From Mesorhizobium shangrilense (lineage in GTDB: Bacteria; Pseudomonadota; Alphaproteobacteria; Rhizobiales; Rhizobiaceae), in the NCBI RefSeq assembly GCF_040537815.1, contig NZ_JBEWSZ010000001.1:2728001-2792000 (forward strand): a stretch of 64,000 nt of DNA. The letters run 5' to 3'. Positions 8,311 through 35,223 of this stretch are shown here, piece after piece. Below the pieces are notes generated by a model. The model was not told where the DNA came from and ran no database searches. It saw only the letters and a program-made list of their open reading frames with translations. Within the stretch, counting starts at the first letter, position 1. Every line of letters starts with the position of its first letter. Made by a program: the position numbers and the translations under genes.

Positions 8311-8392
8311 CTACAGGAAAATTTTTTTCATGCCAATTGAATTCCTGGGGCGCATTCGATACATCTCCAGAGAACAAAGGTCGGAGGCTGAC

Positions 8393-9289: not shown

Positions 9290-9293
9290 GTTC

Positions 9294-10019: not shown

Positions 10020-10025
10020 GGCAGC

Positions 10026-11354: not shown

Positions 11355-11386
11355 GCCTTCAGCATACCAATAAGCGAGGAACTATA

Positions 11387-12694: not shown

Positions 12695-12730
12695 TGTCCG
12701 GAGTGAGGCGAGCGACCTCGGAATGAACGC

Positions 12731-13984: not shown

Positions 13985-14000
13985 GGACGGTCAGGAAACC

Positions 14001-18139: not shown

Positions 18140-20509
18140 ATGAGCCAGTCGCCCTACCCTGCCGTGACCACCGGACCGCCGCGCCCGAGCCTCATCCTGA
18201 GGCCCGGGCAGATCGCCATGCCGCCGGGCGTGGAGCGTTATACGATCCAGGGCAGCGGCGCGGTGCTGATCGAGGTCGAGGCCGGCGATACGCTCACCGT
18301 GCGCAATGTCGAAGGCGGCCAGGCGTGCGAGTTGGTGGCCTGGGACAAGACAGGCGTCACCGACCCCGGCATTTTCGGTGAAACATCGAACAGCAACGCC
18401 GCCGGCGTCAAGGCGCTGCTTGCCGAAGGCGATGACAGCCTCGCCGCCTTGCGGCGTGGTCTCGAACGCCGGCAGGTACAGGTTGATCATGCCAAGGCAG
18501 TGCGCGTGTTCGGCGCCGCCACGCCGGCCGGCACCGAACAGGCTTTCACCGTCGTGCGCGATGGCTCGATGGTCATAGCCGCACCCGGCGGGCCGATGCT
18601 GGTCGATGGTCACGACACCGCGACGCCGCTTACCGTCATCGTCCGACGCGCCACCATCCGCCCGGCAACGAAATCGCAAATGGGCGATCCGCTGGCCGAT
18701 CCGGTGCTCGACCTACGGGTCCACTCGGCGACGGCGGAAGCCTATTTCGTCAAGGCCGGCGACTATCTGCAGATCATCGATGTCGACGGGCGCCAGTGCA
18801 CGGACTTCCAGTGCTTTTCGGCGCGCAAGCTCGACAAGGGCCTCGATCATCCGCTCGACGTGACGACCACACGCACGCTGATGGGCTCGAGCTACCCGAT
18901 GCCCGGCCTGCATTCGAAATATTATGACCAGGACATGGAGCCGCTGGTCGAGGTGATCCAGGACACATGCGGCCGGCACGATGCGTTCGCACTCGCTTGC
19001 GCGGCCAAATATTACGACGACATCGGCTATCCCGGCCACACCAACTGCTCGGAGAATTTCAACCGCGCGCTGGCCGACAAGGGCGCCAATCCCCGCGCCG
19101 GCTGGATGGCGATCAACTTCTTCTTCAACACGGCGATCGACGCCCATGGCGTCATGGTCTCCGACGAGCCATGGTCGCGACCCGGCGACTATGTGCTGCT
19201 GCGGGCACTAACCGACATCGTCTGTGTCTCCTCCGCCTGCCCCGACGACACGACCCCGGCCAATGGCTGGAACCCGACCGACATCCATGTGCGAGCCTAT
19301 TCCGGCCAGCACAAATTCTCGCGAGCGATCGCCAGACGCATGACGCCCGATTCGGAACCCAAGATGACCCGCGAGACCGCCTTTCATTCGAGCTTTGCCA
19401 AGCACACCCGCAACTTCGTCGAGTACAAGGGCTACTGGCTGGCCAATTCCTTCGCCAAGGAGGGCCCCATCGACGAATACTGGGCCTGCCGGCAGGACGC
19501 GGTGATCATGGATCTGTCACCGCTGCGCAAGTTCGAGGTCACCGGCCCGGACTCGGAGGCGCTGCTGCAGTACACGCTGACGCGTGACGTCAAGAAGCTC
19601 GGCGTCGGCCAGGTCGTCTATTCGGCCATGTGCTACGAACATGGCGGCATGATCGACGACGGCACGCTGCTGCGCCTCGGCAAGGACAATTTCCGCTGGG
19701 TTGGCGGCGACGATTTCTCAGGCGAATGGCTGCGCCAGACCGCGACCAAGCTCGGCCTCAACGTGCTGGTGCGCTCGTCCACCGACCAGATGCACAATGT
19801 TGCCGTGCAGGGGCCGAAGAGCCGCGACATCCTGAAGGAGGTGATCTGGACCTCGCCGCTGCAGCCGTCGATCGAGGAACTGGAATGGTTCCGCTTCGCG
19901 GTCGCGCGCATCGGCGGCGGCAACGGCATTCCCATCGTCGTCTCGCGCACCGGCTATACCGGCGAGCTTGGCTACGAGATCTGGTGCCATCCGCGCGACG
20001 CCGAAAAGGTGTTCGACGCCGTCTGGGAAGCCGGCCAGCCGCACGGGCTGAAGCCGATGGGGCTGCAGGCACTCGACATGGTGCGCATCGAGGCTGGCCT
20101 GATATTTGCCGGCTATGAATTCTCGGATCAGACCGATCCGTTCGAGGCCGGCATCGGCTTCACCGTGCCGCTGAAGACCAAGACCGACGACTTCATCGGC
20201 CGCGAGGCGCTGATCCGACGCAAGGAGCATCCGCTAACAAAGCTGGTCGGCCTTGATATCGACGCCAATGTCGCTGTTGGCCATGGCGACTGCGTGCATG
20301 TCGGCCGCGCCCAGATCGGTGTCGTCACGTCGGGCGTGCGTTCGCCGGTGCTGAACAAGAACATCGCGCTGGCGAGACTTGACGTCACCCACGCCGCTGT
20401 CGGTACCGAAGTCGAGATCGGCAAGCTCGACGGCCATGCCAAACGGCTGCCGGCACGGGTCGTCCCTTTCGCCCATTACGATCCGCAAAAGACCCGGCCA
20501 CGTTCCTGA
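18140..20509 (+). CDS. tdm: Trimethylamine N-oxide demethylase-like protein (DUF1989-GcvT fusion)
   Basis: A 789-residue fusion. Residues about 20-385 carry two urea-carboxylase-associated (DUF1989-like) segments, with likely metal-site cysteines C277, C303 and C367 in CGRHDAF, HTNCSENF and SSACPDD contexts. Residues about 420-780 are a GcvT-type folate domain (SRTGYTGELGYEIWC, DMVRIEAGLIFAGYEF). This architecture and length match Tdm, which splits trimethylamine N-oxide into dimethylamine and formaldehyde without an external reductant. The context supports that: genes for using dimethylamine and methylamine precede it. DUF1989 is also found in unrelated enzymes, so the activity is predicted. 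Confidence 0.82.
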   Translation: MSQSPYPAVTTGPPRPSLILRPGQIAMPPGVERYTIQGSGAVLIEVEAGDTLTVRNVEGGQACELVAWDKTGVTDPGIFGETSNSNAAGVKALLAEGDDSLAALRRGLERRQVQVDHAKAVRVFGAATPAGTEQAFTVVRDGSMVIAAPGGPMLVDGHDTATPLTVIVRRATIRPATKSQMGDPLADPVLDLRVHSATAEAYFVKAGDYLQIIDVDGRQCTDFQCFSARKLDKGLDHPLDVTTTRTLMGSSYPMPGLHSKYYDQDMEPLVEVIQDTCGRHDAFALACAAKYYDDIGYPGHTNCSENFNRALADKGANPRAGWMAINFFFNTAIDAHGVMVSDEPWSRPGDYVLLRALTDIVCVSSACPDDTTPANGWNPTDIHVRAYSGQHKFSRAIARRMTPDSEPKMTRETAFHSSFAKHTRNFVEYKGYWLANSFAKEGPIDEYWACRQDAVIMDLSPLRKFEVTGPDSEALLQYTLTRDVKKLGVGQVVYSAMCYEHGGMIDDGTLLRLGKDNFRWVGGDDFSGEWLRQTATKLGLNVLVRSSTDQMHNVAVQGPKSRDILKEVIWTSPLQPSIEELEWFRFAVARIGGGNGIPIVVSRTGYTGELGYEIWCHPRDAEKVFDAVWEAGQPHGLKPMGLQALDMVRIEAGLIFAGYEFSDQTDPFEAGIGFTVPLKTKTDDFIGREALIRRKEHPLTKLVGLDIDANVAVGHGDCVHVGRAQIGVVTSGVRSPVLNKNIALARLDVTHAAVGTEVEIGKLDGHAKRLPARVVPFAHYDPQKTRPRS

Positions 20510-20764: not shown

Positions 20765-22474
20765 ATGAGCTCGATAAGCACTGCCTTGGAGCAGCCTGCG
20801 GAAAGCAAGCTGCATCGCAATATCGACTGGCGCGGCGCCTTCTGGGTGGCAAGCGGCGTCCCTGCCCTCGTCCTGTTCTCGATCGGCGGCATTGCCGGCA
20901 CGACGGGAACCCTGGCATTCCTGATCTGGACCGCATCCATGATCATGGGCTTCCTGCAATCCTTCACCTATGCGGAAATCGCAGGCCTGTTCCCGAACAA
21001 GTCCGGCGGCGCCTCGATCTACGGCGCCACCGCCTGGCTGCGCTATTCGAAGTTCATCGCGCCGCTCTCGGTCTGGTGCAACTGGTTCGCGTGGTCGCCG
21101 GTGCTATCGCTCGGCTGCTCGATCGCCGCCGCCTATATCCTCAACGCGCTGGCGCCCGTGCCGCTGTTCACCGATGCCTCGCCGGATGTCGTCGCCTATA
21201 TCGCGGCGCATGCCGGAACGAGCGCAGCCGACGCCGTCACCGCGGTGACGGCCGCCGCGACGCCGGCGATCCGCAACTGGACGCTGTTCAGCCATACGCT
21301 CGGTCCGGTCTCGTTCACCTTCAACGCCACCTTCTTCATCGGCGCAGTGCTGATGCTGATCATCTTCTCCATCCAGCATCGCGGCATCCTGGGCACGGCC
21401 AATGTGCAGAAATATATCGGCCTGCTGGTCATCATCCCGATGCTGATCGTCGGCGTCGTGCCGATCTTCACCGGCCAGATCAACTGGGCGAATTTCTCGC
21501 CGCTGGTGCCTCTGGCAGCAGCCTATGCACCTGAGCCCGGCTCGTGGAATATCGCCGGCTGGACGCTGGTTTTTGGCGGCATGTTCATCGCGGCCTGGTC
21601 TACCTACGGTTTCGAGACAGCCGTCTGCTACACCTCCGAATTCAAGAACCCGGGCACCGACACGTTCAAGGCGATCTTCTACTCCGGCTTGCTCTGCATG
21701 CTGCTGTTCATCCTGGTGCCGTTTACCTTCCAGGGCGTGCTCGGACTGAACGGCATGCTGGCGACCCCGATCGTCGACGGCTCCGGCGTCGCCGATGCGC
21801 TGGCCGGCATGGTCGGCGGCGGACATCTCATCCACAGCCTGCTGGTGATGCTGATGATCCTGGCGCTTGTGCTGTGCATCATGACGGCGATGGCCGGCTC
21901 CTCGCGCACGCTCTACCAGGGCTCGGTCGACGGCTGGCTGCCGCGCTACCTCAGCCACGTCAACGAGCATGGCGCGCCGACGCGCGCGATGTGGACCGAT
22001 CTTTGCTTCAACCTGATCGTGCTGGCCATCGCCTCGGCCGACGCGACGAGCTTCTTCTTCATCCTCGCCGTGTCGAACTGCGGCTACATCATCTTCAACT
22101 TCCTCAACCTCAACGCCGGCTGGATCCACCGCATCGACAACGGCCATATCGCGCGGCCATGGAAGGCGCCAAGCTGGTTGCTCGGCATCGGCGCGATCTT
22201 CGCCTATGTCAACGCGATCTTCATGGGCGCCGGCGCCAAGGTCTGGAACCCGATGGCGCTGTGGGCCGGGCTGATCACGGCGGCGCTTATCATCCCGGTG
22301 TTCTGCTACCGTCACTATATCCAGGACGGCGGCAAATTCCCTCCCCATATGCTGGCGGACCTCGGCATGACGTCGTCGGATCTGGCGGTCAAGAAGGCGG
22401 GCATCCTGCCCTATCTGACGCTGATCGCCGGCGTCGCCGTGATGCTCATCGCCAACTGGCTGTTTGTCATCTGA
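20765..22474 (+). CDS. APC-superfamily permease, second amine/amino acid transporter of the island
   Basis: A 569-residue membrane protein with about 13-14 hydrophobic segments. The N-terminal cytosolic part (about 25 residues) precedes the glycine-rich FSIGGIAGTTGTLAFLIW region, the unwound TM1 of APC carriers. AAAAGGGGAAC lies about 9-14 bases before the ATG at 20765. A 255-bp gap separates it from the tdm-like gene; that gap has TTGACG at 20610-20615 as a possible -35 but no firm promoter. It probably imports a methylated amine or related amino acid. It ends in front of a strong terminator at 22543. Confidence 0.83.
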   Translation: MSSISTALEQPAESKLHRNIDWRGAFWVASGVPALVLFSIGGIAGTTGTLAFLIWTASMIMGFLQSFTYAEIAGLFPNKSGGASIYGATAWLRYSKFIAPLSVWCNWFAWSPVLSLGCSIAAAYILNALAPVPLFTDASPDVVAYIAAHAGTSAADAVTAVTAAATPAIRNWTLFSHTLGPVSFTFNATFFIGAVLMLIIFSIQHRGILGTANVQKYIGLLVIIPMLIVGVVPIFTGQINWANFSPLVPLAAAYAPEPGSWNIAGWTLVFGGMFIAAWSTYGFETAVCYTSEFKNPGTDTFKAIFYSGLLCMLLFILVPFTFQGVLGLNGMLATPIVDGSGVADALAGMVGGGHLIHSLLVMLMILALVLCIMTAMAGSSRTLYQGSVDGWLPRYLSHVNEHGAPTRAMWTDLCFNLIVLAIASADATSFFFILAVSNCGYIIFNFLNLNAGWIHRIDNGHIARPWKAPSWLLGIGAIFAYVNAIFMGAGAKVWNPMALWAGLITAALIIPVFCYRHYIQDGGKFPPHMLADLGMTSSDLAVKKAGILPYLTLIAGVAVMLIANWLFVI

Positions 22475-22631: not shown

Positions 22632-22669
22632 GAATATGCTTGTTGAACGATCGTACAACAAGCATATTC
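22632..22669. promoter_or_regulatory. 38-bp palindromic operator before the flavoprotein-methyltransferase pair
   Basis: The two 19-base halves, 22632-22650 (GAATATGCTTGTTGAACGA) and 22651-22669, are reverse complements except at one position. The centre is between 22650 and 22651. The inner 24 bp differ at only two positions from the centre of the palindrome at 34465-34502. The ATG of the downstream gene is 12 bp away, so the operator must overlap or abut the promoter. Its TTGAACG half-site style suits a BetI/TetR-type repressor; the candidate is encoded at 26328-27008. Confidence 0.85.
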
Positions 22670-22681
22670 TGTGAAGCCCTG

Positions 22682-24784
22682 ATGACCTGTAATCCTCGTT
22701 ACGAAATCCTGTTCGAACCGATGCGGATCGGGCCTGTCACGGCGCCGAACCGTTTCTATCAAGTGCCCCACGCAAGTGGCATGACAAACGCGCTGCCACG
22801 GGTCCGTGCCGCCTTTCGCGAGGCCAAGGCCGAGGGCGGATGGGGCGTGATCTGCACCGGCGCCTGTTCGATCGACCCCACTTCGGACGACACGCCGCTG
22901 CCTTTCGCCACCCTGTGGGACAAGAACGATATCCGCGCGCATGCGCTGATGACGGAGGCGGTGCATCGCCATGGATCGCTTGCCGGCGTGGAACTCTGGC
23001 ACGGCGGCGCTTCGGTGATGAACAGGACAAGCCGGCTGCCGCCACTGTCGCCATCCGGGATTCCATGGATGGCCACCCATGTCGGCTTCATGGGCAATCT
23101 GCGGCCAAAGACGATGGACAAGGCCGACATACGCGAGGTGTTGCGATGCCAGGCCGAGGCGGCGCGCAAGGCGCGCACCGCCGGTTTCGATGTCGTCTAC
23201 GTCTATGCCGGCATGGGCTATCTCGGCTACGAATTCCTGCTGCCCGAATACAATCATCGCGTCGACGAATATGGCGGATCGATCGACAATCGCGTGCGCT
23301 TCGTGCGAGAGATGATCGAAGTCACCAAGGATGCGGTGGGCAAGGATTGTGGCGTCGCGTTGCGGGTCAGCCTCGAGGAACTGCGCGGCCGGCCCGGCCG
23401 CAATCAGCCCTCCGAGGCCCACGAGCTTATCGAACTGCTGGCCGACCTTCCCGACCTGTTCGACGTCAAGATGGATTCCAGCCCGACCGACTGCTCGGCG
23501 TCCCGCTTCACCGGCGAAGGCAGCCATGAGCCGGTGATCGACTTCGTCAAATCGCTGACCAGGAAACCGGTGGTCGGCGTCGGCCGCTTCACCTCGCCCG
23601 ATGCCATGGTCTCGCAGATCAAGCGCGGCGTGCTGGATTTCATCGGTGGCGCGCGCCCTTCGATCGCCGACCCGTTCCTGCCGGCCAAGATCCGCGAAGG
23701 CCGCGAGGCGGAAATCCGCGAATGCATCGGCTGCAATATCTGCATTTCGAGCTGGCATGACGGCGTGCCGGTGCGCTGCACCCAGAACCCGACCGCCGGC
23801 GAGGAATGGCGGCGCGGCTGGCATCCCGAACGCGTCGAACGCGCCGACAAGCCCGAGCGAATCCTCATTGTCGGCGGCGGACCTGCCGGGCTCGAATGCG
23901 CCGTAACCCTCGGCCGTCGCGGCCATGAGGTGACACTTGCCGACAGCAGCCGGTCCTTCGGCGGGCGGCTGACCTTCGAGAAGACGCTGCCTGGCCTCGC
24001 CGCCTGGAACCGCGTCGTCGATTACCGGCTCGGGCGCCTCGGCGAGATGAGCAATGTCGCGCTCTACCCAGAGAGCACGCTCGGCGTCGATGAGATCCTC
24101 GACCTGGCGCCGGACCGCGTGGTGCTGGCGACCGGCGCGCGCTGGACGAACATGCTCTATTCCTCGCTGGAAATTCCGGTCGGCCGGCTCGACCATCCGA
24201 ATGTGTTCACCCCAGACGACATTGCCGGCGGCCGGCTTCCCGAAGGGCCGACGCTCGTCTTCGATTTCGACAATTATTACATGGGCGGCGTCCTCACCGA
24301 GCATCTGGCCGCGCAGGGCATTCCGGTCAGCTATGTGACCCCCGCTGGCCAGGCGTCCGCATGGACGATCATGACCAACGAGCTGCCGCTGGTGCACCGG
24401 GCGCTGGCACGACGCAAGGTGGCGGTGACGACGCTGCATTTGCTGAAATCCTTCGACGGCGAGACGGCGACGCTGGCGCATCTCTTCACCGGCGAGGAGA
24501 CCCGCCTGGCCTGCCGCTCGGTGCTGATCGTCGGGCTGAGATTGCCGCACGGCGAACTCTTCAAGGCGCTGACGGAACGGGCCGACGACGTTGTTGCTGC
24601 CGGCATCCGCAGTGTCGATCGCATCGGCGACACGCTGGCCCCCGGCGCCATCGCCCATGCCGTGCACAGCGGCCACAAGTTGGCTCAGGAGATCGGCGCG
24701 ACTATTCGCTGGCAGCCCTATCGCCGCGATACGCCGATCGTCGACGCGGTCGAGAATTTCGATATGCGCACGGCAGCCGAATAG
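22682..24784 (+). CDS. Trimethylamine dehydrogenase-like NADH:flavin oxidoreductase ([4Fe-4S], FMN)
   Basis: A 700-residue enzyme of the old-yellow-enzyme/trimethylamine dehydrogenase branch. An N-terminal FMN TIM barrel (1-340) starts PNRFYQVPHASGM. A [4Fe-4S] motif uses C348, C351, C354 and C366. A C-terminal nucleotide-binding domain has VGGGPAG at 397-403. At the position of the Cys that covalently holds FMN in trimethylamine dehydrogenase there is Ala31, and the active-site His is replaced by Met178, although Tyr175 is kept. A related rhizobial enzyme, StcD, demethylates N-methylproline. The function is therefore probably oxidative demethylation of an unidentified N-methyl compound. The start at 22682 follows the operator. 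Confidence 0.86.
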   Translation: MTCNPRYEILFEPMRIGPVTAPNRFYQVPHASGMTNALPRVRAAFREAKAEGGWGVICTGACSIDPTSDDTPLPFATLWDKNDIRAHALMTEAVHRHGSLAGVELWHGGASVMNRTSRLPPLSPSGIPWMATHVGFMGNLRPKTMDKADIREVLRCQAEAARKARTAGFDVVYVYAGMGYLGYEFLLPEYNHRVDEYGGSIDNRVRFVREMIEVTKDAVGKDCGVALRVSLEELRGRPGRNQPSEAHELIELLADLPDLFDVKMDSSPTDCSASRFTGEGSHEPVIDFVKSLTRKPVVGVGRFTSPDAMVSQIKRGVLDFIGGARPSIADPFLPAKIREGREAEIRECIGCNICISSWHDGVPVRCTQNPTAGEEWRRGWHPERVERADKPERILIVGGGPAGLECAVTLGRRGHEVTLADSSRSFGGRLTFEKTLPGLAAWNRVVDYRLGRLGEMSNVALYPESTLGVDEILDLAPDRVVLATGARWTNMLYSSLEIPVGRLDHPNVFTPDDIAGGRLPEGPTLVFDFDNYYMGGVLTEHLAAQGIPVSYVTPAGQASAWTIMTNELPLVHRALARRKVAVTTLHLLKSFDGETATLAHLFTGEETRLACRSVLIVGLRLPHGELFKALTERADDVVAAGIRSVDRIGDTLAPGAIAHAVHSGHKLAQEIGATIRWQPYRRDTPIVDAVENFDMRTAAE

Positions 24785-24792
24785 GAGTATCC

Positions 24793-26331
24793 ATGGAACG
24801 GATTGCAGCGCGTCGCAGACCCGGCCGTCCACAGCGCGAGATCGGCGGCATCGAACAGCGCCCATGGAAACAACTGACGCGGCCCTACCAGCCGATCGAA
24901 ATCCTGTCGGCCGACCAGGTCCAGACCATCCATGAGATGGGCCTGACCATTCTCGAAGAGATCGGCATGCGCGTGCTCCAGCCGCAGGCGCGGCAGTTCT
25001 ATCGCTCGGCGGGCTGCGATGTCGACGAAGGAGAGATGCGGGTGCGCTTCGACCGTGCCATGGTGATGGAGCACGTCGCCATGGTGCCGTCATCGTTCGA
25101 GTTGCGCGCCCGCAATCCGGAGAAGAATGTGAAGGTCGGCGGGCGGCACTGCATCCTGTCGTCGGTCGGTGGCCCGGCCTATGTCATGGACAATGATCGC
25201 GGCCGCCGGCCCGGCACCTATGCCGAGATGTGCGATTACCTGAAGCTGATCCAGTCGTTCAACGTGCTGCATCAGGAAGGCGGCGGACCGTTCGAGCCGC
25301 TCGACCTGCACCAGAACACGCGTCACCTCGACCTCTACTATGCCGAGATCACGTTGCTGGACAAGAACTGGCAGCCGCAGGCGCTTGGCCGCGGACGCGC
25401 CGTCGACGCGCTCGAAATGGTGGCGATCTCGCTCGGCACAACGCGCGAAAACCTGGCCAACGAAATGCCTGTCTTTACCGGCATCATCAACACCAATTCG
25501 CCGCTGCAACTCGACGAGCCTATGGCCGAAGGCCTGATCGCGCTGGCCGAGCATGGCCAGGTCAACGTCATCACGCCTTTCACGCTTGCAGGGGCGATGA
25601 GCCCGGTGACGCTCGCCGGCGCGCTGTCGCAGCAGCATGCCGAAGCGCTGGCCGGCATCGTGCTGACGCAGATCGTGCGCCCTGGCGTGCCGGTGATGTA
25701 TGGCGGCTTCACGTCCAATGTCGACATGAAGACCGGCGCGCCGGCCTTCGGCACGCCTGAATACACGCAGGCCGCCCAGATCACCGGGCAGCTCTGTCGG
25801 CTGATCGGCGTGCCGTTCCGTTCCAGCAATGTGACCGCCGCCAATTCGGTCGACGCGCAGGCGGCCTATGAGAGCGCCATGTCGCTTTGGGGTTGCCTGA
25901 TGGGCGGCGCCAATCTGGTGCTGCACGCAGCCGGCTGGCTCGGCGGCGGATTGACGGCGTCGTTCGAGAAATTGGTCATCGACGCCGAGATGCTGCAGAT
26001 GATGTCCGCCTATTTCGACCCGCCGGTGGTCGACATCGATACGCTGGCGCTGGAAGCGGTACGCGAGGTCGGTCCGGCCGGGCATTTCTTCGGCGCGGCG
26101 CACACGATGCAGCGCTACGAGCGCGCCTTCTACTCGCCGCTGGTCTCCAACTGGGACAATTACGACACATGGATGGAACGCGGCCAGGTGACGGCGCGCG
26201 AGCGCGCCAACGTCATCTGGAAGCGCATGGTCGCCGAATATGAGCAGCCGCCGATCGATCCCGGCATCGACGAAGCACTGCGGGACTATATGGAACGCCG
26301 CAAACGCGAGGGCGGTTGCCCGCTGAATTAG
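24793..26331 (+). CDS. MttB-superfamily (trimethylamine methyltransferase-like) protein without pyrrolysine
   Basis: A 512-residue TIM-barrel methyltransferase of the MttB superfamily. The frame is continuous, with no in-frame TAG, so it is of the non-pyrrolysine kind. Characterised members of that kind demethylate quaternary amines such as glycine betaine (MtgB) or proline betaine (MtpB) onto a corrinoid protein. No corrinoid protein gene or corrinoid-methyltransferase gene is present in the window. The ATG at 24793 follows AGGAG by 5 bases and lies 8 bp after the flavoprotein stop, so the two are co-transcribed. It converges on the regulator gene with a 4-bp overlap. Confidence 0.85.
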   Translation: MERIAARRRPGRPQREIGGIEQRPWKQLTRPYQPIEILSADQVQTIHEMGLTILEEIGMRVLQPQARQFYRSAGCDVDEGEMRVRFDRAMVMEHVAMVPSSFELRARNPEKNVKVGGRHCILSSVGGPAYVMDNDRGRRPGTYAEMCDYLKLIQSFNVLHQEGGGPFEPLDLHQNTRHLDLYYAEITLLDKNWQPQALGRGRAVDALEMVAISLGTTRENLANEMPVFTGIINTNSPLQLDEPMAEGLIALAEHGQVNVITPFTLAGAMSPVTLAGALSQQHAEALAGIVLTQIVRPGVPVMYGGFTSNVDMKTGAPAFGTPEYTQAAQITGQLCRLIGVPFRSSNVTAANSVDAQAAYESAMSLWGCLMGGANLVLHAAGWLGGGLTASFEKLVIDAEMLQMMSAYFDPPVVDIDTLALEAVREVGPAGHFFGAAHTMQRYERAFYSPLVSNWDNYDTWMERGQVTARERANVIWKRMVAEYEQPPIDPGIDEALRDYMERRKREGGCPLN

Positions 26332-27008
26332 GCGTCCCGCAAAGGCCCGACCTGCGCCTCAAGCATCTCGAAGCCGGCGGCTTCGGCCGCTTGAGGTGTC
26401 ACCACGCTTTCGTCGAGACACCATTCGAGCCAGAGCCCGTCGACCAGGGCGATGAAATTGCGGGCTAGCGCGGGGGCGTCGACAGGCCTGCCACGCGGCA
26501 CGGCGACGGCCGCGATATCCTCCGCGAGTTCCGCACGGTAGGCATCGTAGAGTTCCCGATGCGCTGCCTTGAGGCGCGGATTGACGGCGATCTCACCCCA
26601 TAAGGACAGCCAGATCAGCAGATTGTCGCGGCTGAAATATTCGGGCGAGAAGTTGGAGCGCACCAGTGCGGCGAGCGACGCCTCCGGCGGCCAGTCGGAT
26701 GCCTCGGCGCGACGGCGCTTGGCCTCGGCGATCTGGTTGTTGACGCTGGCATAGAGCGAGGATTTGTAGACCTCGACCAGAAGCCCGTCGCGCCCCTCGA
26801 AATGATGGTTGATCAGGCCGCGCGAGACACCGGCTTCCTTGCAGATGCGATCGACGGTGAAGGCGCCGATGCCACCGACCGACAGGCAGCGCGCCGCCGC
26901 CTCGATCAGCATGGCGCGGCGCACATCCGCCTGCTCGCGGCTGAAGCGCGGCGGCGATTTCTTGGCGCCACGCTTACGTTTTTCAGGGGCTGATCCCGCT
27001 TCTGTCAT
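26328..27008 (-). CDS. BetI/TetR-family transcriptional regulator
   Basis: A 226-residue regulator. A basic N-terminal arm (KRKRGAKK) leads into a TetR helix-turn-helix at about 30-80 with the recognition stretch VSRGLINHHFEGRDGL, very like BetI. The C-terminal domain (90-215) is a helical ligand pocket containing WLSLWGEI and ALVDGLWLEWCLDE, also seen in BetI-type choline sensors. It is the last gene of the leftward operon whose head carries the palindrome at 34465, and its 3' end overlaps the methyltransferase gene. It is the likely binder of both palindromes, which would give autoregulation. Ligand unknown. Confidence 0.87.
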   Translation of the reverse strand: MTEAGSAPEKRKRGAKKSPPRFSREQADVRRAMLIEAAARCLSVGGIGAFTVDRICKEAGVSRGLINHHFEGRDGLLVEVYKSSLYASVNNQIAEAKRRRAEASDWPPEASLAALVRSNFSPEYFSRDNLLIWLSLWGEIAVNPRLKAAHRELYDAYRAELAEDIAAVAVPRGRPVDAPALARNFIALVDGLWLEWCLDESVVTPQAAEAAGFEMLEAQVGPLRDA

Positions 27009-27052
27009 AGACCTCAGCTAATCGATTGCACCCGCTGTGTCCATGAAAGCGT

Positions 27053-28615
27053 TCATGCCTTCTTCTTGAACAGCACCGGATTGGGGTGGCCGTCGGGATA
27101 GATGACCGACTCGAAATCCGTCTTGTGGACGACAACCAACGGCTGGTGGCAGATGAAGACGAAGCCGCCGGATTGCTCCATCAGGTCTTCCATGCGGTTG
27201 GATAGAGCGATGCGTTTGGCTTCGTCGCTTTCCGCTACCAGCTGCTGGTAGCTCGTCTCGAACTCGGGACTGTCGAAGCCGGACCAGTTGTAGGCGCCGA
27301 TCTGGTCGGGGCGGAACCAGACCAGATTTTCGGACGGGTCGACGCCGCCAGCGAAATCCATCAGCGCGAGATCGATGTTCTTGTAACCGTCGCCTTGCGT
27401 CTTGTCGCCAACGCCCCAGAACGCCGCCTCGTCATAGGGCTGGATATCGACCTTGATGCCGGCCTGCTCAAGACTGGCCTGGATGATCTGGGCTGTCGCG
27501 GTGCGGATGGAATCGTTCATCACGGTCAAGGTCAGCGACAGATTGCTGACGCCGGCCTCGGCCAACAGCGCAGCCGACTTTTCATAGTCTGGTGCTGCAA
27601 TCAGGTTGCTCGCACGCGCGAATTTGGTTCCGGGCTGGACGACGCCGGTGGAGCGCTTGGTGAGATCGTCATAGACGCCCGTGAGGATCTGCCCGACATC
27701 GACGCCATACTGCACGGCCTGGCGGACTTTTGGATCCTTGAGGCGCGGGCTCAGCATGTTGATGGTCAGCCAGACGTAACGGGTCGACTGGGCCTCGATC
27801 AGGGTTGTGTCGGCGGGCGGGCTCGCCTTGACCGCCTTGGTCGCCGAAATGGCGATCTTGGTGTAGTCGAAGGCCTCGGCCTCGTAGGCCAGTTGTGCTG
27901 CCTGATCATCGGCGACGACGAAGATCTCGACCTTGCCGAAATCCGGCTTCGGGCCTGGCCAGTCGGGGTTGGCTGTCAGCGTCACCTTCTGCTTCTGCTG
28001 CCAGTCGCTGAAGACATAGGGACCGCAAGAGGCCGGCGGCTGGGTCGTAAACTTGCCGCCCGCCTTTTCCGTGCCGGCGCGGCTGATGATGTGCCCGCCA
28101 TAATAGGGCAGGCTGGTGACGAAGATCGGCTGATAGGGTTCCTTCAAATGGATGATGCCGGACCTGGCATCGACGACCTCGACGCGGTCGAGCTTCTCGA
28201 ACTGATAGGCCCAGGGCGATGAAAGGGTCTTGTCGGCGATACGCTCGAACGAGAATTTCACGTCATCGGCGGTGACAGCGCCAAAACCGTTCGACCATTT
28301 CAGCCCGTCGATCAAGGTGAAGGCGATGGTCTTCGGGTCCTTCTGCTCAAGCTTCTCAGCGCCCCAGGGCGCCCAGGGCGACCCTTTCTGGATATCGCCG
28401 AAATGGTTCAGCGTCACATAGATGCCGCGCATGATGACGTCCTCGATGCCGCCATTCATGAAGGCGGGATCGAGCGTCTGCAGATCGCCTTCCATGCGAA
28501 TGCGCAGCGTATCGCCGGCCGCCGACCAGGCGAAGCCGGGCTTCATCGTCAGGCCGGCGCCCAGCGCGCCCGCTGCCTTCAGGAAGGCACGTCTGTCCAT
28601 GTTCCATCGTGTCAT
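27053..28615 (-). CDS. ABC transporter substrate-binding protein, peptide/nickel family 5
   Basis: A 520-residue periplasmic binding protein of the DppA/OppA family. The N-terminus has a twin-arginine type export signal (DRRAFLKAAGALGAGL), so export folded by the Tat route is expected. Family segments such as LDPAFMNGGIEDVIMRGIY and the substrate-lid region IQPYDEAAFWG are visible. It is the fifth member of a leftward transporter operon, only 2 bp from the ATPase gene stop. Family-5 binding proteins take peptides but also opines, amines and glycosides, so the cargo is open. Confidence 0.87.
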   Translation of the reverse strand: MTRWNMDRRAFLKAAGALGAGLTMKPGFAWSAAGDTLRIRMEGDLQTLDPAFMNGGIEDVIMRGIYVTLNHFGDIQKGSPWAPWGAEKLEQKDPKTIAFTLIDGLKWSNGFGAVTADDVKFSFERIADKTLSSPWAYQFEKLDRVEVVDARSGIIHLKEPYQPIFVTSLPYYGGHIISRAGTEKAGGKFTTQPPASCGPYVFSDWQQKQKVTLTANPDWPGPKPDFGKVEIFVVADDQAAQLAYEAEAFDYTKIAISATKAVKASPPADTTLIEAQSTRYVWLTINMLSPRLKDPKVRQAVQYGVDVGQILTGVYDDLTKRSTGVVQPGTKFARASNLIAAPDYEKSAALLAEAGVSNLSLTLTVMNDSIRTATAQIIQASLEQAGIKVDIQPYDEAAFWGVGDKTQGDGYKNIDLALMDFAGGVDPSENLVWFRPDQIGAYNWSGFDSPEFETSYQQLVAESDEAKRIALSNRMEDLMEQSGGFVFICHQPLVVVHKTDFESVIYPDGHPNPVLFKKKA

Positions 28616-28616
28616 G

Positions 28617-29645
28617 TCAGTTTCCCCTTTGGTTTGCGGAAGCGCGTGAGAAGGCTTCCCGTTCTTGCCCGCCTGTCTCCAGCGGGAAATGGCAGCGCAC
28701 CATCCGGCCGGCGCCTCGCTCTCGATAGGCCGGCGCCTCGCTCTTGCAGCGTGCCTGAGCGATCGGGCAGCGTGTGTGGAACTCGCAGCCCGAGGGCCGC
28801 CGAAACACGCTGGGAATCTCGCCGGTGACGGCCGGATTTTGACTGCGCCGGCGCGGATCGGGCACCGGCTCGGAGCGGATCAGCGTCGCCGTGTAGGGGT
28901 GCATGGGCGCGGAGAACACATCCTGTGTCGGCCCCGTCTCGACCAGCCGGCCGAGATACATGATGGCCAAGCGGTCGCTGACATGGCGGATCGTCGCCAG
29001 ATTGTGGGTGACGATCATGGCGGCGAAGCCGAGTTCGCGCTTCAACTCGCCGATCAGGTTGAGCACATCGCCCTGCACGGACACATCGAGGCCCGCGGTC
29101 GGCTCGTCGGCAAGCAGAAGATGCGGCTTCATCGCCAGAGCCCGGGCGACGCCGACGCGGCGCGCCTGCCCGCCCGAGAGCTCGTGCGGAAACCGGTCGA
29201 CAAAGGATGCCGGCAGGCCGACCAGTGCCAGCAGCGCCTTGGCAGCGGCGCGGCGGTCCGGCGTCGGCAGCCCTTGAATGATCTGCGGTTCTGTCAGCAG
29301 CGTGCCAATGCGCAAGCGGGGGCTGAGCGAGGCGACTGGGTCCTGGAACATCATCGCCGAGTGCCGGCGCATGGCGCGGAAATCGGCCGGCGTCGCAACG
29401 TCCCTGCCCTCGAAAGTGATCCGCCCGGCCGCCGCGCGCACCAGGCCAAGGATGGTGCGGGCAAGCGTGGTCTTGCCGGAGCCGGATTCGCCGACCAGGC
29501 CCAGCGTTTCGCCCGGCATCAGCGACAGCGTCACGCCGTCGATGACGTTGAAGCCCGGCAGCGGGAACGGATTGATCAGGCGGCTGAGCAGGCCTCTGCG
29601 GGCAAAGGTCACCGACAGGTCGTCGACGGCGAGCAGCGGGCTCAT
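28617..29645 (-). CDS. ABC transporter ATP-binding protein (DppF/OppF-like)
   Basis: A 342-residue ATPase. Walker A GESGSGKTT at about 52-60, signature LSGGQARRVGVARAL, Walker B LLLADEPTAGLD and the H-loop VTHNL are intact. A C-terminal oligopeptide-transporter Cys motif (CEFHTRCPIAQARC) is typical of DppF/OppF and may bind an iron-sulfur cluster. The ATG at 29645 overlaps the stop of the partner ATPase by 4 bp; the frame open beyond it has no support. Confidence 0.9.
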   Translation of the reverse strand: MSPLLAVDDLSVTFARRGLLSRLINPFPLPGFNVIDGVTLSLMPGETLGLVGESGSGKTTLARTILGLVRAAAGRITFEGRDVATPADFRAMRRHSAMMFQDPVASLSPRLRIGTLLTEPQIIQGLPTPDRRAAAKALLALVGLPASFVDRFPHELSGGQARRVGVARALAMKPHLLLADEPTAGLDVSVQGDVLNLIGELKRELGFAAMIVTHNLATIRHVSDRLAIMYLGRLVETGPTQDVFSAPMHPYTATLIRSEPVPDPRRRSQNPAVTGEIPSVFRRPSGCEFHTRCPIAQARCKSEAPAYRERGAGRMVRCHFPLETGGQEREAFSRASANQRGN

Positions 29646-30607
29646 GGCGCCACCGCATGGCAGCGAGCGACATGGGTGGCGGAAAGCTTCGCCAGCGGCG
29701 GCGCGACAGAGCCACATGGCGAAAAGGCACGGTCGCAGCGCGGTGCGTAGACACATCCGGACGGTGGCTGGGTCAGGCTGGGCAGAGTACCGGGGATCGT
29801 CGGCAGTCTTGCCAGCCTTTCGTGGAAGCGCGCCGGATCGCAGGCGAGCAAGGCTTGCGTGTAGGGATGCCCCGCATTGTGGAAGATCGCATCGACCTCG
29901 CCGCCTTCGACCACCTCGCCGGCATACATGACATAGACGCGGTCGCAGAGTTCGGCGATGACGCCGAGATGGTGCGAAACGACGATGATGATGCCGTTGT
30001 ATTCGCGCCTGAGTTCGCGCAGCAGATGGATGATCTGCGCCTCCATGGTGACATCGAGCGCCGTCGTCGGTTCGTCGGCGATGAGCAGGCCAGGATCGGT
30101 CAGCAAGGCAGCGGCGATGGCGACGCGCTGGCGCATGCCTCCCGACAGTTCGTGCGGATAGCAGCTCATGCGCCGTTCGGCGTCCGCGATACCGACGCGG
30201 CCGAGCATCGCGGCGATGCGCGCGCGCTTCTGTGCTCGGCCAAGGTCCTTGCGATGGTGCTGGAAATCGACCAGCTGGTCGCCGATGGTCAGCACGGGGT
30301 TGAAGGCAGTCATCGGATCCTGGCCGACCAGGGCGATCTCGTCGCCGCGCAGCAGGCGCTGGCGGTGGGCATCGAGCTTTGCCAGGTCGATGCCGTTGTA
30401 GCTGATCGAGCCGTCGACGCGAGCGTTGGCTGGCAACAGGTTCGCCAAAGCGGTGACCAGCGTGGACTTGCCGCAGCCACTCTCGCCGACGATGCCGATC
30501 ACTTCGCCCGGATGCGCTTCGATGTCGACATGGCGCAGTGCGTGCACGGCACCATGAGGCGTCTCGTAGCGGACGCTGAGGTTGCTAGCCGCGAGCGAGC
30601 CGGTCAT
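29642..30607 (-). CDS. ABC transporter ATP-binding protein (DppD/OppD-like)
   Basis: A 321-residue ATPase with Walker [10 protein letters not shown] (about 40-48), signature [15 protein letters not shown], Walker [13 protein letters not shown] and switch VSHHL. The C-terminal [14 protein letters not shown] motif is the OppD-type Cys cluster. It works as a heterodimer with the DppF-like subunit. It overlaps both neighbours by 4 bp, so translation is coupled through the operon. Confidence 0.9.
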
Positions 30608-31491
30608 GCCGGCCTCCGCAATTGCAGGCGCGGATCGAGATAATCGCGCAGGCCTTCGCCCAAGAACGTGAAGCCGAGCGTTGCCAGTACCAGTGGCAAC
30701 CCGCCGAAGATGACCATGAACGGTGCCGAGCGGATGCTGGTGTAGCCGTCATAAAGAATGCTTCCCCAGGACGGTGTCGGTGGGCGGACGCCAAGGCCGA
30801 GGAAGCTGAGACCGGCCTCGACCATGATGACGACCGGTATATCCATCGACAGAAGGATGATCAGGGGACCGACGACATTGGGCAGAAGGTGGATGAAGAT
30901 GATGCGCGCGGCACTGGCGTCGAGCAGGCGTTCGGCGAGGATGTAGTCACTGTTCTTCAACGCCAGTGTCTGCGCCCGGATCAGCCGTGCATAGCTCGGG
31001 AACGAGGTCGCGGCGATGACGACGATCAGCGTCCCGGTTCCCGCGCCGAGCACGGTGATGATAGCGAGCGCGAACATGATCATCGGCAGCGAATTCAGGC
31101 TGTCGAACATCAGCACCAGGATGGCGTCGAGCCAGCGCGGCCCGTAGCCGGCGATCAGCCCGAGCATCAGGCCGATCGCACCGGCGATGGCCACGGACAC
31201 CATGGCGATCGTCAGCGCGGTGCGCGCGCCATAGATGATGCGGGACAGCAGGTCACGCCCGAGATGATCGGTGCCGAACCAGTGTTCGGCCGATGGCGGC
31301 TGCAGCTTGTGCAGCACATCGATCTTGACCGGCGAATATGGGGCCAGCCACGGCGCGAAGACGGCTGTTATGATGAAGCTGGTGACGAGGATCAGGGCGA
31401 CACAGGTGAACGGGTCGGCGAGGAGCGCGCGAAGCAACGGAAAACGTTGTCGGTCTGGGAGGGACAGCGAGGCATCAGCCACGGAAGACAT
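30604..31491 (-). CDS. ABC transporter permease (DppC-like)
   Basis: A 295-residue inner-membrane permease with about six hydrophobic segments. It has an N-terminal OppC_N segment ending in APYSPVKIDVLHKLQPPSAEHWFGTDHLGRDLLSR. The EAA loop SYARLIRAQTLALKNSDYILAERLLDASAARIIF faces the ATPase. The ATG at 31491 has GAGGG 6 bases upstream; the frame also offers GTG one codon earlier. It overlaps the 3' end of the other permease gene by 17 bp. Confidence 0.89.
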   Translation of the reverse strand: MSSVADASLSLPDRQRFPLLRALLADPFTCVALILVTSFIITAVFAPWLAPYSPVKIDVLHKLQPPSAEHWFGTDHLGRDLLSRIIYGARTALTIAMVSVAIAGAIGLMLGLIAGYGPRWLDAILVLMFDSLNSLPMIMFALAIITVLGAGTGTLIVVIAATSFPSYARLIRAQTLALKNSDYILAERLLDASAARIIFIHLLPNVVGPLIILLSMDIPVVIMVEAGLSFLGLGVRPPTPSWGSILYDGYTSIRSAPFMVIFGGLPLVLATLGFTFLGEGLRDYLDPRLQLRRPA

Positions 31492-32425
31492 CACGAACCC
31501 TCGGATCGAGCCGCGCGATCAGGAGATCGGCGGCGATGGTGATGGAGACATAGATGGCGGTCATGATGAGCACCGTGCCCATGACGACCGGATAGTTGCG
31601 GGTGTTGACGGCGTCGGTGATCAGCTTGCCGATGCCAGGCCGGGCAAACACCGCCTCGACGAAGACGGCGCTGGACAGGATGCTGCCAAGGCCGACAGCG
31701 ACCAGCGAAATGGTCGGGATGATGGCGATGCGCAGCGCGTATTTGGAGACGATCTTCCACTCCGGCAGGCCGAAGGACCGCGCGGTGCGGATGTGCGGCT
31801 CGCCCATCACCTCCATCATCGAGGCACGCACCATGCGGGCGATATAACCGATCCAGCCAAGCGCGATGGCCGCTGCCGGCATCACCAGCGCCTTGGCCTG
31901 GCTGACGATGTCGCCGGCCTCGCCGGCGCCAATGGCCGGCAGCCAACGCAGCGTCACGGCAAAGAGCAACAGCGAATAGATGGCGACGACGAAGGACGGT
32001 ACGGCGATGACGCCGACGGAGAGCACGCCGATGACCGCATCGGCAAGCGTGCCGCGCCGCATGACAGAAAGGCAGCCGAGCGGAACGCCGATGAGAAGGG
32101 CCACGGCAAGCGCGGTCAGGCCGAGGATCAGCGTGTTCGGCAGCGCCTCCATGACCAGCGTGGAGACCGGGCGGTTCGACCAGACATCGTAGCCAAGATT
32201 GCCGGTCAGTGCGTTGCGGAAGAATTCGACGATCTGCCACCAGACCGGCTGGTCGAGGCCCATGCGCTCGATCAGCAGCCTCTTGAGTTCCGGCGTGGCA
32301 CGCGGACCAAGCGCCACGGTTGCCGGATCGCCCGGAACCAGGAAGACAGCCGCATACATGGCGACCATGACGAGCACGAGGATCAGGAGGCCGAGACCGA
32401 TGCGCTTGATTGCGTAGGTGAGCAT
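31475..32425 (-). CDS. ABC transporter permease (DppB-like)
   Basis: A 316-residue permease with six predicted membrane helices and the DppB-type first periplasmic segment (FLVPGDPATVALGPRATPE). The EAA loop YIARMVRASMMEVMGEPHIRTARSFGLPEWKI is complete. It pairs with the DppC-like subunit. It is 15 bp downstream of the hydrolase gene, so hydrolase and transporter are almost certainly co-transcribed. Confidence 0.89.
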   Translation of the reverse strand: MLTYAIKRIGLGLLILVLVMVAMYAAVFLVPGDPATVALGPRATPELKRLLIERMGLDQPVWWQIVEFFRNALTGNLGYDVWSNRPVSTLVMEALPNTLILGLTALAVALLIGVPLGCLSVMRRGTLADAVIGVLSVGVIAVPSFVVAIYSLLLFAVTLRWLPAIGAGEAGDIVSQAKALVMPAAAIALGWIGYIARMVRASMMEVMGEPHIRTARSFGLPEWKIVSKYALRIAIIPTISLVAVGLGSILSSAVFVEAVFARPGIGKLITDAVNTRNYPVVMGTVLIMTAIYVSITIAADLLIARLDPRVRDVFRG

Positions 32426-32440
32426 CGTTCTCAGGTCCCC

Positions 32441-34450
32441 TCAGGCGAAATCGCGCCTGATGCGCTGGGTTGCCGAGGCGCTGTGGACGAGCCTGCCTCG
32501 TTCTCGCGCCTCGAGACGCCAACTCAGGTTGAAATGCGTTTCATCGGCCGTCAGCTCGGTGATTGCCGTCGCCTCGGTGTCGGCATCGCCGCTGGCAATG
32601 GCCCAGCGGTATTCCGTGACGAGCTTTGCCGACAGCGGATCGTCGGCCTTGATGCTCATCGTGTCGCTGTTGGCCGAGGATACGGTGATGGCGCGATCGT
32701 CGTAGCGCCTGCATCCATGGTCGGAACTCAGCGCGATGGTCTGCATCCCGGTGCCGACGTCCTCCGTGGTGATGCGGCGATCGAAACCCTCCTCCAGCGT
32801 TGTTGTCGGCACCGGTGGCGCGGTCTCAGCCGGCTCGAAACGCACATCACTGTCGCGCGGCGACGGCGGGCGCACCGGAAGCATCATGGTGCAGTCGCCG
32901 CTCGCCATTGACAGCGTCGACAGGTGCGGCTGCGGCCACAGGATCGGCCAATGCTGGTTGGCCAGCGCAAGCCGAATGCGATGGCCCCTAGGCACGGTGC
33001 GGGCAAAATCGTTGAGTTTCAGCTTTACGCGAAATGGCGTTCCGACAGGACAAGGTGTCGGGTGCTCGTGGCTGTCGCGGTGGCTGAGATTGAGCACGCC
33101 ATAGGTCATCAACGCCGAAGTGCCGTCGGGATAGACATCGCAGAGCCGTGCGGCGAGGTTGACATGCGGCTGGTCGACCGTGACGAGCAGGTCGAGCTCG
33201 ACCGCGCCGAGCAATGTCAGGTCGTCATCCAATGGCGTTGTGTCGAAGCACAACGCCATGCCGTCCTCTCGGCGCTGGTCGATGGGCATGTCCGGACAGG
33301 AGCCGCCATAGCCACCCCAACGGCCGCAATCGCGCCCGGCAGTCGCCGGCGATTGTACCGAAAGCGTGGCGCCCGGCGTCGCCTGACCGGTCAGCCCGGC
33401 AGCATTCAGATGCAGCACGCGACGCTCGATGCGCGGCGATGGCCAAGCATCCTCGGCGGCCCAGCTTCCGGCATGATCGGGGAGATAGAAAGGCTGTGGC
33501 CGCTCCTCCCCTGTCACCCAGACGCGGTAGAGCGGCTCATCCATGATGCCGGTGTCTTCGCCGCAGAGCCAGTGACGCCACCAGCGCAGCGCCTCCTGCA
33601 GATAGCCGATCAGCGGTCCGGGCGCGCCACGGCAGGGATAGGCATGCGACCATGGGCCGACGATGCCGAGCTTCGGCCCAAGCAGATGTTCGAGCAGGCG
33701 TGGGACGAAGTTCGAATAGCTGTCCTCCCAGCCGCAGACGGCCATGACCGCGCATTCGATCGCGGAATGGTCCTCGCAGACTGACCCTTGGCGCCAGTAG
33801 TCGTCGCGGCGCTGATGGGCGAGCCACACTTCCGAAAGCGAACTCGTCGCCGTGAGGCGCGTGGTCCACATGTCGCGCCAGGCGTCGCCGACGATCTGCG
33901 GGTCCGGCGCCATCGCCTTCTTGACCAGCATGAAGTTGGACCACATCTCCTGCTCGGTCAGCAGCGCGCCACCCATATAATGGATGTCGTCGGCGTAGCG
34001 GTCGTCGGTGGCGCAGTTGGCGATGATGGCCTTCAGGGCCGGCGGCCGGCGCGCTGCGACCTGCAGCGCGTTGAAGCCGCCCCAGGAGATGCCGGTCATG
34101 CCGACATTGCCGTTGCACCAGGGCTGGGCGGCGAGATGGGCGATGATCTCGCAGGCGTCCAGCTGTTCGCGCGGCAGATATTCGTCGGCCAGGTCGCCGT
34201 CGGAATCGCCGCTGCCGCGAATGTCTATGCGGGCGCAGGCAATGCCGTGTCCGGCGAGCCAGGGATGGATGTCGATGTCGCGCGCCACAGTGCCGTCACG
34301 GCGGCGATACGGCACCATCTCGACGACCACGGGCACCTTGCCCTCGGTTCGCGGACGCCACAGCGTGGCGGCGATGCGGGTGCCGTCGGCCAGCGTGATC
34401 CAGAGCGGATCGACGGTTTCCACGGCAAAGGGAAATTCGGTTCGTACCAC
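32441..34450 (-). CDS. S15/CocE-type alpha/beta hydrolase (X-Pro dipeptidyl-peptidase family)
   Basis: About 669 residues, cytoplasmic. An alpha/beta hydrolase domain has the nucleophile motif GISWGG (Ser about 122) and the early DIRGSGDSDG and PYRRRDGT segments of the CocE/NonD and X-Pro dipeptidyl-peptidase family. A C-terminal jelly-roll (about 340-560) follows. Family members hydrolyse esters (cocaine esterase), acylated beta-lactams or X-Pro peptides. The start is uncertain: no ATG fits, and GTG at 34450, 15 bp past the operator, is the most likely. It is the first gene of the transporter operon, so its substrate is probably what is imported. Confidence 0.82.
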   Translation of the reverse strand: MVRTEFPFAVETVDPLWITLADGTRIAATLWRPRTEGKVPVVVEMVPYRRRDGTVARDIDIHPWLAGHGIACARIDIRGSGDSDGDLADEYLPREQLDACEIIAHLAAQPWCNGNVGMTGISWGGFNALQVAARRPPALKAIIANCATDDRYADDIHYMGGALLTEQEMWSNFMLVKKAMAPDPQIVGDAWRDMWTTRLTATSSLSEVWLAHQRRDDYWRQGSVCEDHSAIECAVMAVCGWEDSYSNFVPRLLEHLLGPKLGIVGPWSHAYPCRGAPGPLIGYLQEALRWWRHWLCGEDTGIMDEPLYRVWVTGEERPQPFYLPDHAGSWAAEDAWPSPRIERRVLHLNAAGLTGQATPGATLSVQSPATAGRDCGRWGGYGGSCPDMPIDQRREDGMALCFDTTPLDDDLTLLGAVELDLLVTVDQPHVNLAARLCDVYPDGTSALMTYGVLNLSHRDSHEHPTPCPVGTPFRVKLKLNDFARTVPRGHRIRLALANQHWPILWPQPHLSTLSMASGDCTMMLPVRPPSPRDSDVRFEPAETAPPVPTTTLEEGFDRRITTEDVGTGMQTIALSSDHGCRRYDDRAITVSSANSDTMSIKADDPLSAKLVTEYRWAIASGDADTEATAITELTADETHFNLSWRLEARERGRLVHSASATQRIRRDFA

Positions 34451-34464
34451 GGCAGGTACCCGTA

Positions 34465-34502
34465 AAATGCTCTTGTTGAACGTTCGTATAACAAGAGCAT
34501 TT
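34465..34502. promoter_or_regulatory. 38-bp palindromic operator before the hydrolase-transporter operon
   Basis: Halves 34465-34483 (AAATGCTCTTGTTGAACGT) and 34484-34502 are reverse complements at 16 of 19 positions. The central 24 bp match those of the palindrome at 22632-22669 at 22 of 24 positions, although the outer flanks differ. A TTATAC stretch on the minus strand inside the element could be a -10 box. The same site at both operon heads is strong evidence of a shared repressor, most simply the TetR-type protein at 26328-27008. Confidence 0.84.
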
Positions 34503-35181: not shown

Positions 35182-35223
35182 GATGAATGCCTCACGCTAT
35201 TTTCGAGCCAACGGCCCGGTTTC

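Follow-up and report, generated by a model that had tools for sequence, protein, structure and literature searches.

Two convergent operons in the rhizobial bacterium Mesorhizobium shangrilense are each headed by a long palindrome, and the two palindromes closely resemble one another. Do they mark a single regulon and, if so, what might its genes accomplish together? We analysed a window of 64,000 nucleotides (contig NZ_JBEWSZ010000001.1, positions 2,728,001 to 2,792,000), to which coordinates refer unless another locus is named. The plus-strand operon encodes a flavoprotein and a methyltransferase of the MttB superfamily. The minus-strand operon encodes a hydrolase of the S15/CocE family, an ATP-binding cassette (ABC) transporter of the Opp type and a TetR regulator. 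Comparative sequence analysis gives good support to one regulon and one co-inherited gene set, because the palindromic sites are unique, the two arms co-occur in the genus and the same gene set recurs in a second architecture. Judging from sequence, it is also fairly probable that a BetI-like repressor governs how an ester- or amide-linked quaternary amine is taken up, hydrolysed and N-demethylated step by step.

Palindromes and the genes that accompany them

The palindrome at 22632..22669 is the proposed operator of the flavoprotein-MttB operon, and that at 34465..34502 is the proposed operator of the hydrolase-transporter-regulator operon. Both are 38 bp long, with 36 and 32 symmetric positions, respectively, and their 24-base cores are identical at 22 positions. 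The coordinates and the agreement between cores are as given in the original prediction, which was made from the window's sequence. That prediction also placed the sites 12-15 bp before the start codons. This is accurate for the flavoprotein gene (12 bp, ATG at 22682), but the gap before the hydrolase gene is slightly shorter, at 11 bp (GTG, first base 34453, minus strand). The hydrolase start codon is ATG in three other loci (L090, L092, L109). Allowing up to two mismatches in its 16 fixed bases, the core CTTGTTNNACGNNCGTNNAACAAG occurs at only these two places in the 8.35-Mb genome, where a reversed control pattern has no matches at the same threshold. A scan of the window for 38-bp stretches with at least 34 symmetric positions returned only 22632-22669; the other site, with 32, lies under this cut. 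Other short near-palindromes in the window scan, at 53387-53410 and 62804-62827, are unrelated in sequence to the proposed operators.

Among 146 Mesorhizobium genomes, 36 have an ortholog of the hydrolase (E <= 1e-220) and 39 have one of MttB, with 35 having both. Every one of the 40 genomes with either arm contains the core with no more than one mismatch, whereas none of the 106 with neither arm does. At two mismatches, three of the armless genomes also match (G717, G783, G786), and only 14-16 of the 24 bases in these matches are symmetric. True sites mostly have 18-22 symmetric bases, with 16 in a few (M. soli, G213, L093). The 40 arm-bearing genomes among 43 matched genomes correspond to a hypergeometric value of ~1e-32, uncorrected for relatedness. 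In 35 of the 36 genomes, 15-22 nt separate the end of the core from the hydrolase match; in the 36th (G810), this match is truncated. The original prediction had named two outcomes that would speak against it, namely a core occurring at many unrelated genes and arms that do not co-occur, and neither was found here.

In a public genome collection, 26 of 36 hydrolase loci belong to Mesorhizobium, including M. loti, M. plurifarium, M. erdmanii and M. qingshengii. All 26 have a palindrome with at most three mismatches before the hydrolase. Of the 16 Mesorhizobium loci whose retrieved sequence reaches the flavoprotein end, 14 also have one before the flavoprotein. By the same threshold, 17 of the compared rows have a palindrome ahead of the flavoprotein gene.

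The same enzymes occur in a second arrangement. Ten loci in a family sample of 297 genomes (L060, L063-L071) have a single-operon form, in which the TetR gene is divergent from genes for the flavoprotein, hydrolase, permeases, ATPases, solute-binding protein and MttB, in that order; L102, L104 and L108 are three more. MttB is present in 12 of these 13 loci, which lie outside the genus, and is missing in L070. The hydrolase, transporter and MttB are 46-61% identical to those of the window (69-89% in the Pseudaminobacter locus L060) and the flavoprotein is 77-84% identical, while the TetR protein is only 32-35% identical. In all 13 loci, the spacer between TetR and flavoprotein genes holds a different, related palindrome around TTATACGATCxTATAA, scoring 12-16 of 16 positions against a consensus drawn from the same 13 loci. 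Of nine first-type regulators compared, eight have SRGLINHHF in the recognition-helix region (G213 has SRGLINHYF), paired with TTGTTGTACG-type sites, whereas all 13 second-type regulators have TQGLITHHF, paired with TTATACGATC-type sites. Thus the two architectures differ in regulator type, site type and gene order alike, with the set of enzymes retained. Some genomes not labelled as Mesorhizobium also have the two-armed form (G080, G062, G108, G290); in G213 this form lacks the hydrolase. A near-symmetric core with three mismatches (L110:1711-1734) lies between hydrolase and permease genes in a metagenome-assembled genome (MAG) from Rhodospirillales.

Encoded proteins and a proposed pathway

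The flavoprotein gene (22682..24784, plus strand) belongs to the family of trimethylamine dehydrogenase (TMADH) and histamine dehydrogenase, according to domain matches (Oxidored_FMN and a pyridine-nucleotide domain), alignment and relatives in the PDB, of which the nearest are 6l6j, histamine dehydrogenase and TMADH. It has the two-domain layout, can be aligned over its full length and contains the 4Fe-4S motif C-x2-C-x2-C-x11-C (ECIGCNICISSWHDGVPVRC). Using residue numbers and roles that we assume for TMADH, it keeps equivalents of Tyr169, Asp267 and Trp355. By family membership the protein is likely an oxidative N-demethylase, and it is not likely to act on trimethylamine. We rejected its identification as TMADH proper, because Cys30, which links the flavin mononucleotide (FMN), and Tyr60 and Trp264 of the aromatic bowl are not kept (Trp355 is). 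The label "TMADH-like" in the original prediction therefore suits the family, but does not extend to these three residues or to His172.

The MttB gene (24793..26331, plus strand) is an open frame of 512 codons without an in-frame stop, and its product matches PF06253 with 647 bits over profile positions 4-500 of 500. Its PDB relatives are 4yyc, 2qne and the glycine betaine methyltransferase 9yce. It is proposed to be a corrinoid-dependent quaternary-amine demethylase. A pyrrolysine-containing trimethylamine methyltransferase was rejected, given a TIGR02369 score of 279 bits versus a cut-off of 525 and no in-frame amber codon. An mttB gene of Mesorhizobium alhagi, which may or may not be the mttB of our window, is reported to be salt-induced, to have a knockout without a salt-resistance phenotype and to be of unknown function (PMC4302635).

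Two of the 13 single-operon loci bear on what MttB does. In G175, a Rieske oxygenase gene lies beside the solute-binding protein gene in the MttB slot, and no MttB was found within the 20 kb inspected there; G100 has Rieske and MttB genes next to each other. The best NCBIfam match of both Rieske proteins is GbcA, at 180-183 bits versus a cut-off of 670. One of them was searched in the PDB, with best matches to 3n0q, carnitine monooxygenase 6y8j, 3vca and demethylase 4qup; we take 3vca and 4qup to be the stachydrine demethylase Stc2. Rieske relatives of the GbcA/CntA type demethylate quaternary ammonium compounds. The Rieske oxygenase in the MttB slot of this one genome suggests that MttB does the same job, that is, the removal of a methyl group from a quaternary nitrogen.

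The partner set that a corrinoid-dependent MttB system requires is present in the genome, and we propose that the window's MttB uses it. There is exactly one stand-alone B12-binding_2 protein, and the only other match sits in a 1270-aa frame. An island at C1:931-944 kb encodes this stand-alone protein, the sole RACo reactivase, a pterin-binding enzyme, MTHFR, DUF5981 and DUF1638 proteins and an MttB paralog. In a Ruegeria study, MtgB, MtgC, MtgD, MetF2, RamA and a DUF1638 protein are raised on N-osmolytes such as glycine betaine, and an mtgC mutant is tested in its Figure 3 (PMC12478193). The island consists of the same kinds of parts as this glycine-betaine set, which we count in favour of the demethylation pathway.

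The minus-strand operon begins with an S15/CocE-NonD serine hydrolase (32441..34453), a proposed esterase or amidase. It carries Peptidase_S15 and PepX_C domains (PF02129, 208 bits; PF08530, 136 bits), scores above the cut-off for TIGR00976 and matches the fold. Its nucleophile motif of the form GxSxGG, GISWGG (G121-I-S123-W-G-G), is invariant across 15 aligned homologs. Residues ~535-670 are predicted to form an extra C-terminal beta domain of long antiparallel strands, beyond the range matched by CocE structures. The following genes, all on the minus strand, encode ABC permeases B (31475..32425) and C (30604..31494), Opp-type ATPases 1 (29642..30607, an NCBIfam match) and 2 (28617..29645), and a solute-binding protein of the SBP_bac_5 family (27053..28615; Opp/Dpp/opine group by domain match). 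The frame of ATPase 2 extends to 29756, and the start at 29645 is our choice. The transporter is provisionally assigned to the Opp/Dpp type: the solute-binding protein and both ATPases match the families of such systems. The permeases are open frames placed by position and by orthologs conserved at other loci, and their family name comes from reading the sequence. The solute-binding protein has a twin-arginine-like signal slightly below the cut-off (TAT_signal, 20.1 bits versus 21).

The last gene (26328..27008) encodes a TetR protein with a BetI-type C-terminal domain, our proposed repressor at both palindromes; TetR_N (49.9 bits) and TetR_C_6 (77.3 bits) both exceed Pfam cut-offs. It was rejected as a BetI equivalog, with 94.4 bits for TIGR03384 (cut-off 201.3) and 92.6 for NF001978 (cut-off 118). 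The operons converge with an overlap of four bases at 26328-26331. This convergence and the gene content just described, with the permeases recognized as stated, agree with the original prediction.

In the pathway that we propose, the BetI-type TetR would bind the palindrome before each operon and block transcription until an inducer is present, a step supported by phylogeny. The binding protein and the Opp-type transporter would take up a small molecule whose quaternary ammonium group is linked to a second moiety through an ester or amide bond. The hydrolase would cleave that bond in the cytoplasm, as its family and nucleophile motif suggest. MttB, for which the partners are encoded, would demethylate the quaternary nitrogen once, handing the methyl group to the single stand-alone corrinoid protein and then to tetrahydrofolate. 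The flavoprotein would oxidatively strip further N-methyl groups as formaldehyde, and, to judge from adjacency, the freed simple methylamines could feed the neighbouring genes for trimethylamine N-oxide (TMAO) demethylase and N-methylglutamate-type enzymes.

A more specific version is tentative. Through a pathway so far undescribed, rhizobia might import a hydrolysable quaternary-amine conjugate (a choline-, carnitine- or betaine-type ester or amide, or an N-methylated peptide), with the first methyl group removed without O2 via a shared corrinoid protein. This step would be evolutionarily interchangeable with an O2-dependent Rieske demethylase, and the BetI-like repressor would act on unusually long, self-complementary operators. 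If so, the interchange of O2-free and O2-dependent demethylases would suit low-oxygen life in roots or nodules.

Evidence against one pathway, and other explanations

A number of observations weigh against a single pathway or qualify it. Four of the 146 genus genomes (G809, G812, G814, G696) have MttB without the hydrolase. The first three still have TetR (90-96% identical) together with the palindrome ahead of the flavoprotein, and other genes occupy the site of the hydrolase arm; in G809, for example, they encode an NtaA/DmoA-family monooxygenase and an aldehyde dehydrogenase. In G696 the palindrome is retained and the contig stops just past MttB, too early to see TetR. G213 lacks the hydrolase; a palindrome still heads its transporter genes, and a core with three mismatches precedes its flavoprotein. 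A MAG (G797) lacks MttB and keeps the flavoprotein, TetR, the hydrolase arm and both sites. These genomes indicate that TetR goes with the palindrome, which favours the proposed repressor, and that the arms, usually paired, can part. CocE-Opp pairs without MttB or flavoprotein also exist (L072-L074, in three of the same genomes; hydrolase 47-48% identical), so hydrolysis and demethylation are not inseparable. Thus, while one regulon and one co-inherited gene set survive from the original prediction, its single pathway of import, hydrolysis and demethylation is qualified by separable arms and by a chemistry that we infer.

Other points on this side concern the proteins. The flavoprotein has Ala at the position of the FMN-linking Cys30 of TMADH, Ala at Tyr60, a gap at Trp264 and Met at His172. 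Since most residues of the TMADH pocket are lost, its substrate may not be a simple methylamine. Among the aligned structures, 3k30 and 6de6 have Cys at position 30, and 1djq, presumably an engineered mutant at this position, also has Ala. In L058, L059, L109 and L135, the flavoprotein is replaced by a relative only 52-53% identical, and the corrinoid partners of the window's MttB are encoded outside the window.

The remaining points concern the sites. A consensus scan found no sigma-70-type promoter at either palindrome. The two Mesorhizobium loci without a palindrome ahead of the flavoprotein are from M. soli (L090, L092), where a remnant with four mismatches and one half-site is left. At two mismatches, the reversed control matches 16 of the 146 genus genomes (counted from our listing), so such matches alone mean little. 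In a class sample of 385 genomes, the core (up to two mismatches) occurs in 15 besides its own genome and the reversed control in 14 (also counted from the listing); in another scan outside the genus, the control was found in 17 genomes versus 15 besides its own for the true pattern. Because the numbers are so similar, chance explains most class matches, and four cases among the eight class genomes opened are weak evidence. Their cores, with 14-18 of 22 symmetric bases, adjoin GbcA-like Rieske genes (G634, G330, G471) or a TetR gene whose product is 34-35% identical to ours (G540), and the core in G471 lies between the Rieske gene and a divergent BetI-like TetR gene. A link of this operator type to Rieske and BetI-like TetR genes is suggestive only.

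Separable arms would be expected if one repressor governed two functions, with the hydrolase and transporter serving an unmethylated ester or peptide, and the flavoprotein and MttB serving the neighbouring TMAO/methylamine island. The genus genomes with MttB and no hydrolase, and CocE-Opp modules that occur alone, fit this idea. So does the position of the TMAO demethylase and permease genes, which precede the MttB arm both here and in L130-L133 (with other frames between in L131 and L132). However, the second architecture is one operon with no TMAO genes inside, and all but one of the 36 hydrolase-bearing genus genomes carry MttB, and we consider two functions unlikely. There is a still smaller chance that the TetR of the operon is a bystander and that another BetI-like regulator from elsewhere binds the sites, which we view as very improbable. 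The half-sites of the core do resemble the BetI box ATTGACG-CGTCAAT, with a spacing four bases wider. In Ruegeria, a 29-bp region with this palindrome, lying over a predicted -35 box, is protected by BetI1 (PMC12442346), a precedent that we count in favour of our main reading. By contrast, TetR stays with the site in all three hydrolase-less genus genomes where it is visible, and site type tracks TetR type in the 22 loci compared.

The palindromes could instead be RNA or DNA hairpins, acting as an attenuator or translational switch just ahead of the start codons, which are only 11-12 bp away. The outer arms vary from one site to the next, but the two arms of a given site tend to pair (a mean of 4.88 of 8 pairs, versus 3.19 between sites of the same gene), and none of 20,000 shuffles reaches the observed total, although the shuffles do not control for relatedness. 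At least six of eight positions pair in 18 of the 34 unique arm pairs, six of which are perfect with six different sequences. However, 12 have only one or two of eight paired, the core stays nearly palindromic right up to its centre, where a loop would have little space, and no terminator-like structure was found at either site. The second-type palindromes lie 78-105 nt ahead of the flavoprotein match and vary with TetR type. Given that the core letters are nearly fixed and the arms often broken, an operator is the better reading, and hairpins seem a rather improbable one. The arms might be self-complementary because more than one dimer recognizes the symmetry, because a hairpin forms, or because palindromes correct themselves as they are replicated. 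Control by a BetI-like repressor of one uptake, hydrolysis and demethylation pathway stays our preferred explanation.

Genomic context and comparison with known systems

The stretch 8321-22474, all on the plus strand, consists of methylamine-type genes followed by TMAO genes, and leads into the MttB operon. Its first part (8321..17876) has amidotransferase, FwdC-like, GltS-like, type III glutamine synthetase (GS) and soxB/A/G-like genes; GS III, soxB and soxA score over the cut-off and the rest below. This gene order is presumably that of the N-methylglutamate pathway of methylamine use. Next are the TMAO demethylase (18140..20509; NF053776, 1270 bits, cut-off 1100) and the TMAO permease (20777..22474; NF053774, 894 bits, cut-off 690), whose frame is open from 20693, the later start being our choice; both scores refer to NCBIfam equivalogs. 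Behind the hydrolase operon, 34621-40101 holds a small flavodoxin-like frame, an RND-type transporter and a membrane-fusion-type frame, all named from translation. RND-type frames adjoin the hydrolase arm again in several Mesorhizobium loci, and the small flavodoxin-like frame does so in fewer. Further on, two tandem open frames of ~660 codons (53423-55402 and 55499-57487) have nearly identical first 70 residues, an apparent duplication.

Other loci have insertions. In L088, L089, L107, L135 and L136, three genes lie between TetR and MttB, encoding a LysR regulator, an Amidohydro_2 protein and an HD-domain protein that weakly resembles PhnZ/TmpB phosphonate oxygenases, under cut-offs, in the two loci scanned (L088 and L089). 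In a Rhizobiaceae MAG (L057:10773-13409), the arms are separated by genes for a PGA_cap protein and a DddP-like M24 protein (395 bits versus a cut-off of 600). In G805, an insertion-sequence-like frame interrupts the permease C gene (L134:13204-15334), and a frame of the same sequence lies between MttB and TetR.

We found no description of this gene combination in the literature searched. By their sequences, the component parts appear to be of known kinds, and the combination is what would be new. Because the regulon is tightly conserved and includes an importer, a hydrolase and a repressor of its own, inducer and substrate can be looked for with straightforward binding and growth assays. Should the substrate prove to be a plant conjugate, a nutrient that legumes pass on to their symbionts would come to light.

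BetI is the choline-responsive TetR repressor of bet genes. The window's TetR shares its BetI-type C-terminal domain, and both have palindromic sites at operon heads. However, our regulator scores 94 bits versus the equivalog cut-off of 201, its proposed operators differ in spacing and are longer palindromes, and its operons contain no choline oxidation genes. The Rieske betaine demethylases (GbcA, CntA, Stc2) have relatives in the MttB slot or beside MttB, below the GbcA cut-off, and the same quaternary-amine chemistry is proposed here, but they are O2-dependent and belong to another protein family than MttB. The MttB superfamily includes other corrinoid demethylases, among them MtgB (glycine betaine) and also MtpB, MtcB and MtyB, which appear in titles of papers cited in PMC12478193. 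The window's MttB resembles these in having a full MTTB domain, no in-frame stop and a corrinoid partner set in the genome. It differs in that the corrinoid gene is not adjacent and that an Opp transporter, an S15 hydrolase and a flavoprotein are encoded in the operons themselves. The flavoprotein shares domain order and 4Fe-4S cysteine spacing with TMADH and histamine dehydrogenase. Finally, the hydrolase is set apart from cocaine esterase, S15 X-prolyl peptidases and alpha-amino acid ester hydrolases by its extra C-terminal beta domain of ~140 residues, and by its linkage to genes for N-demethylation.

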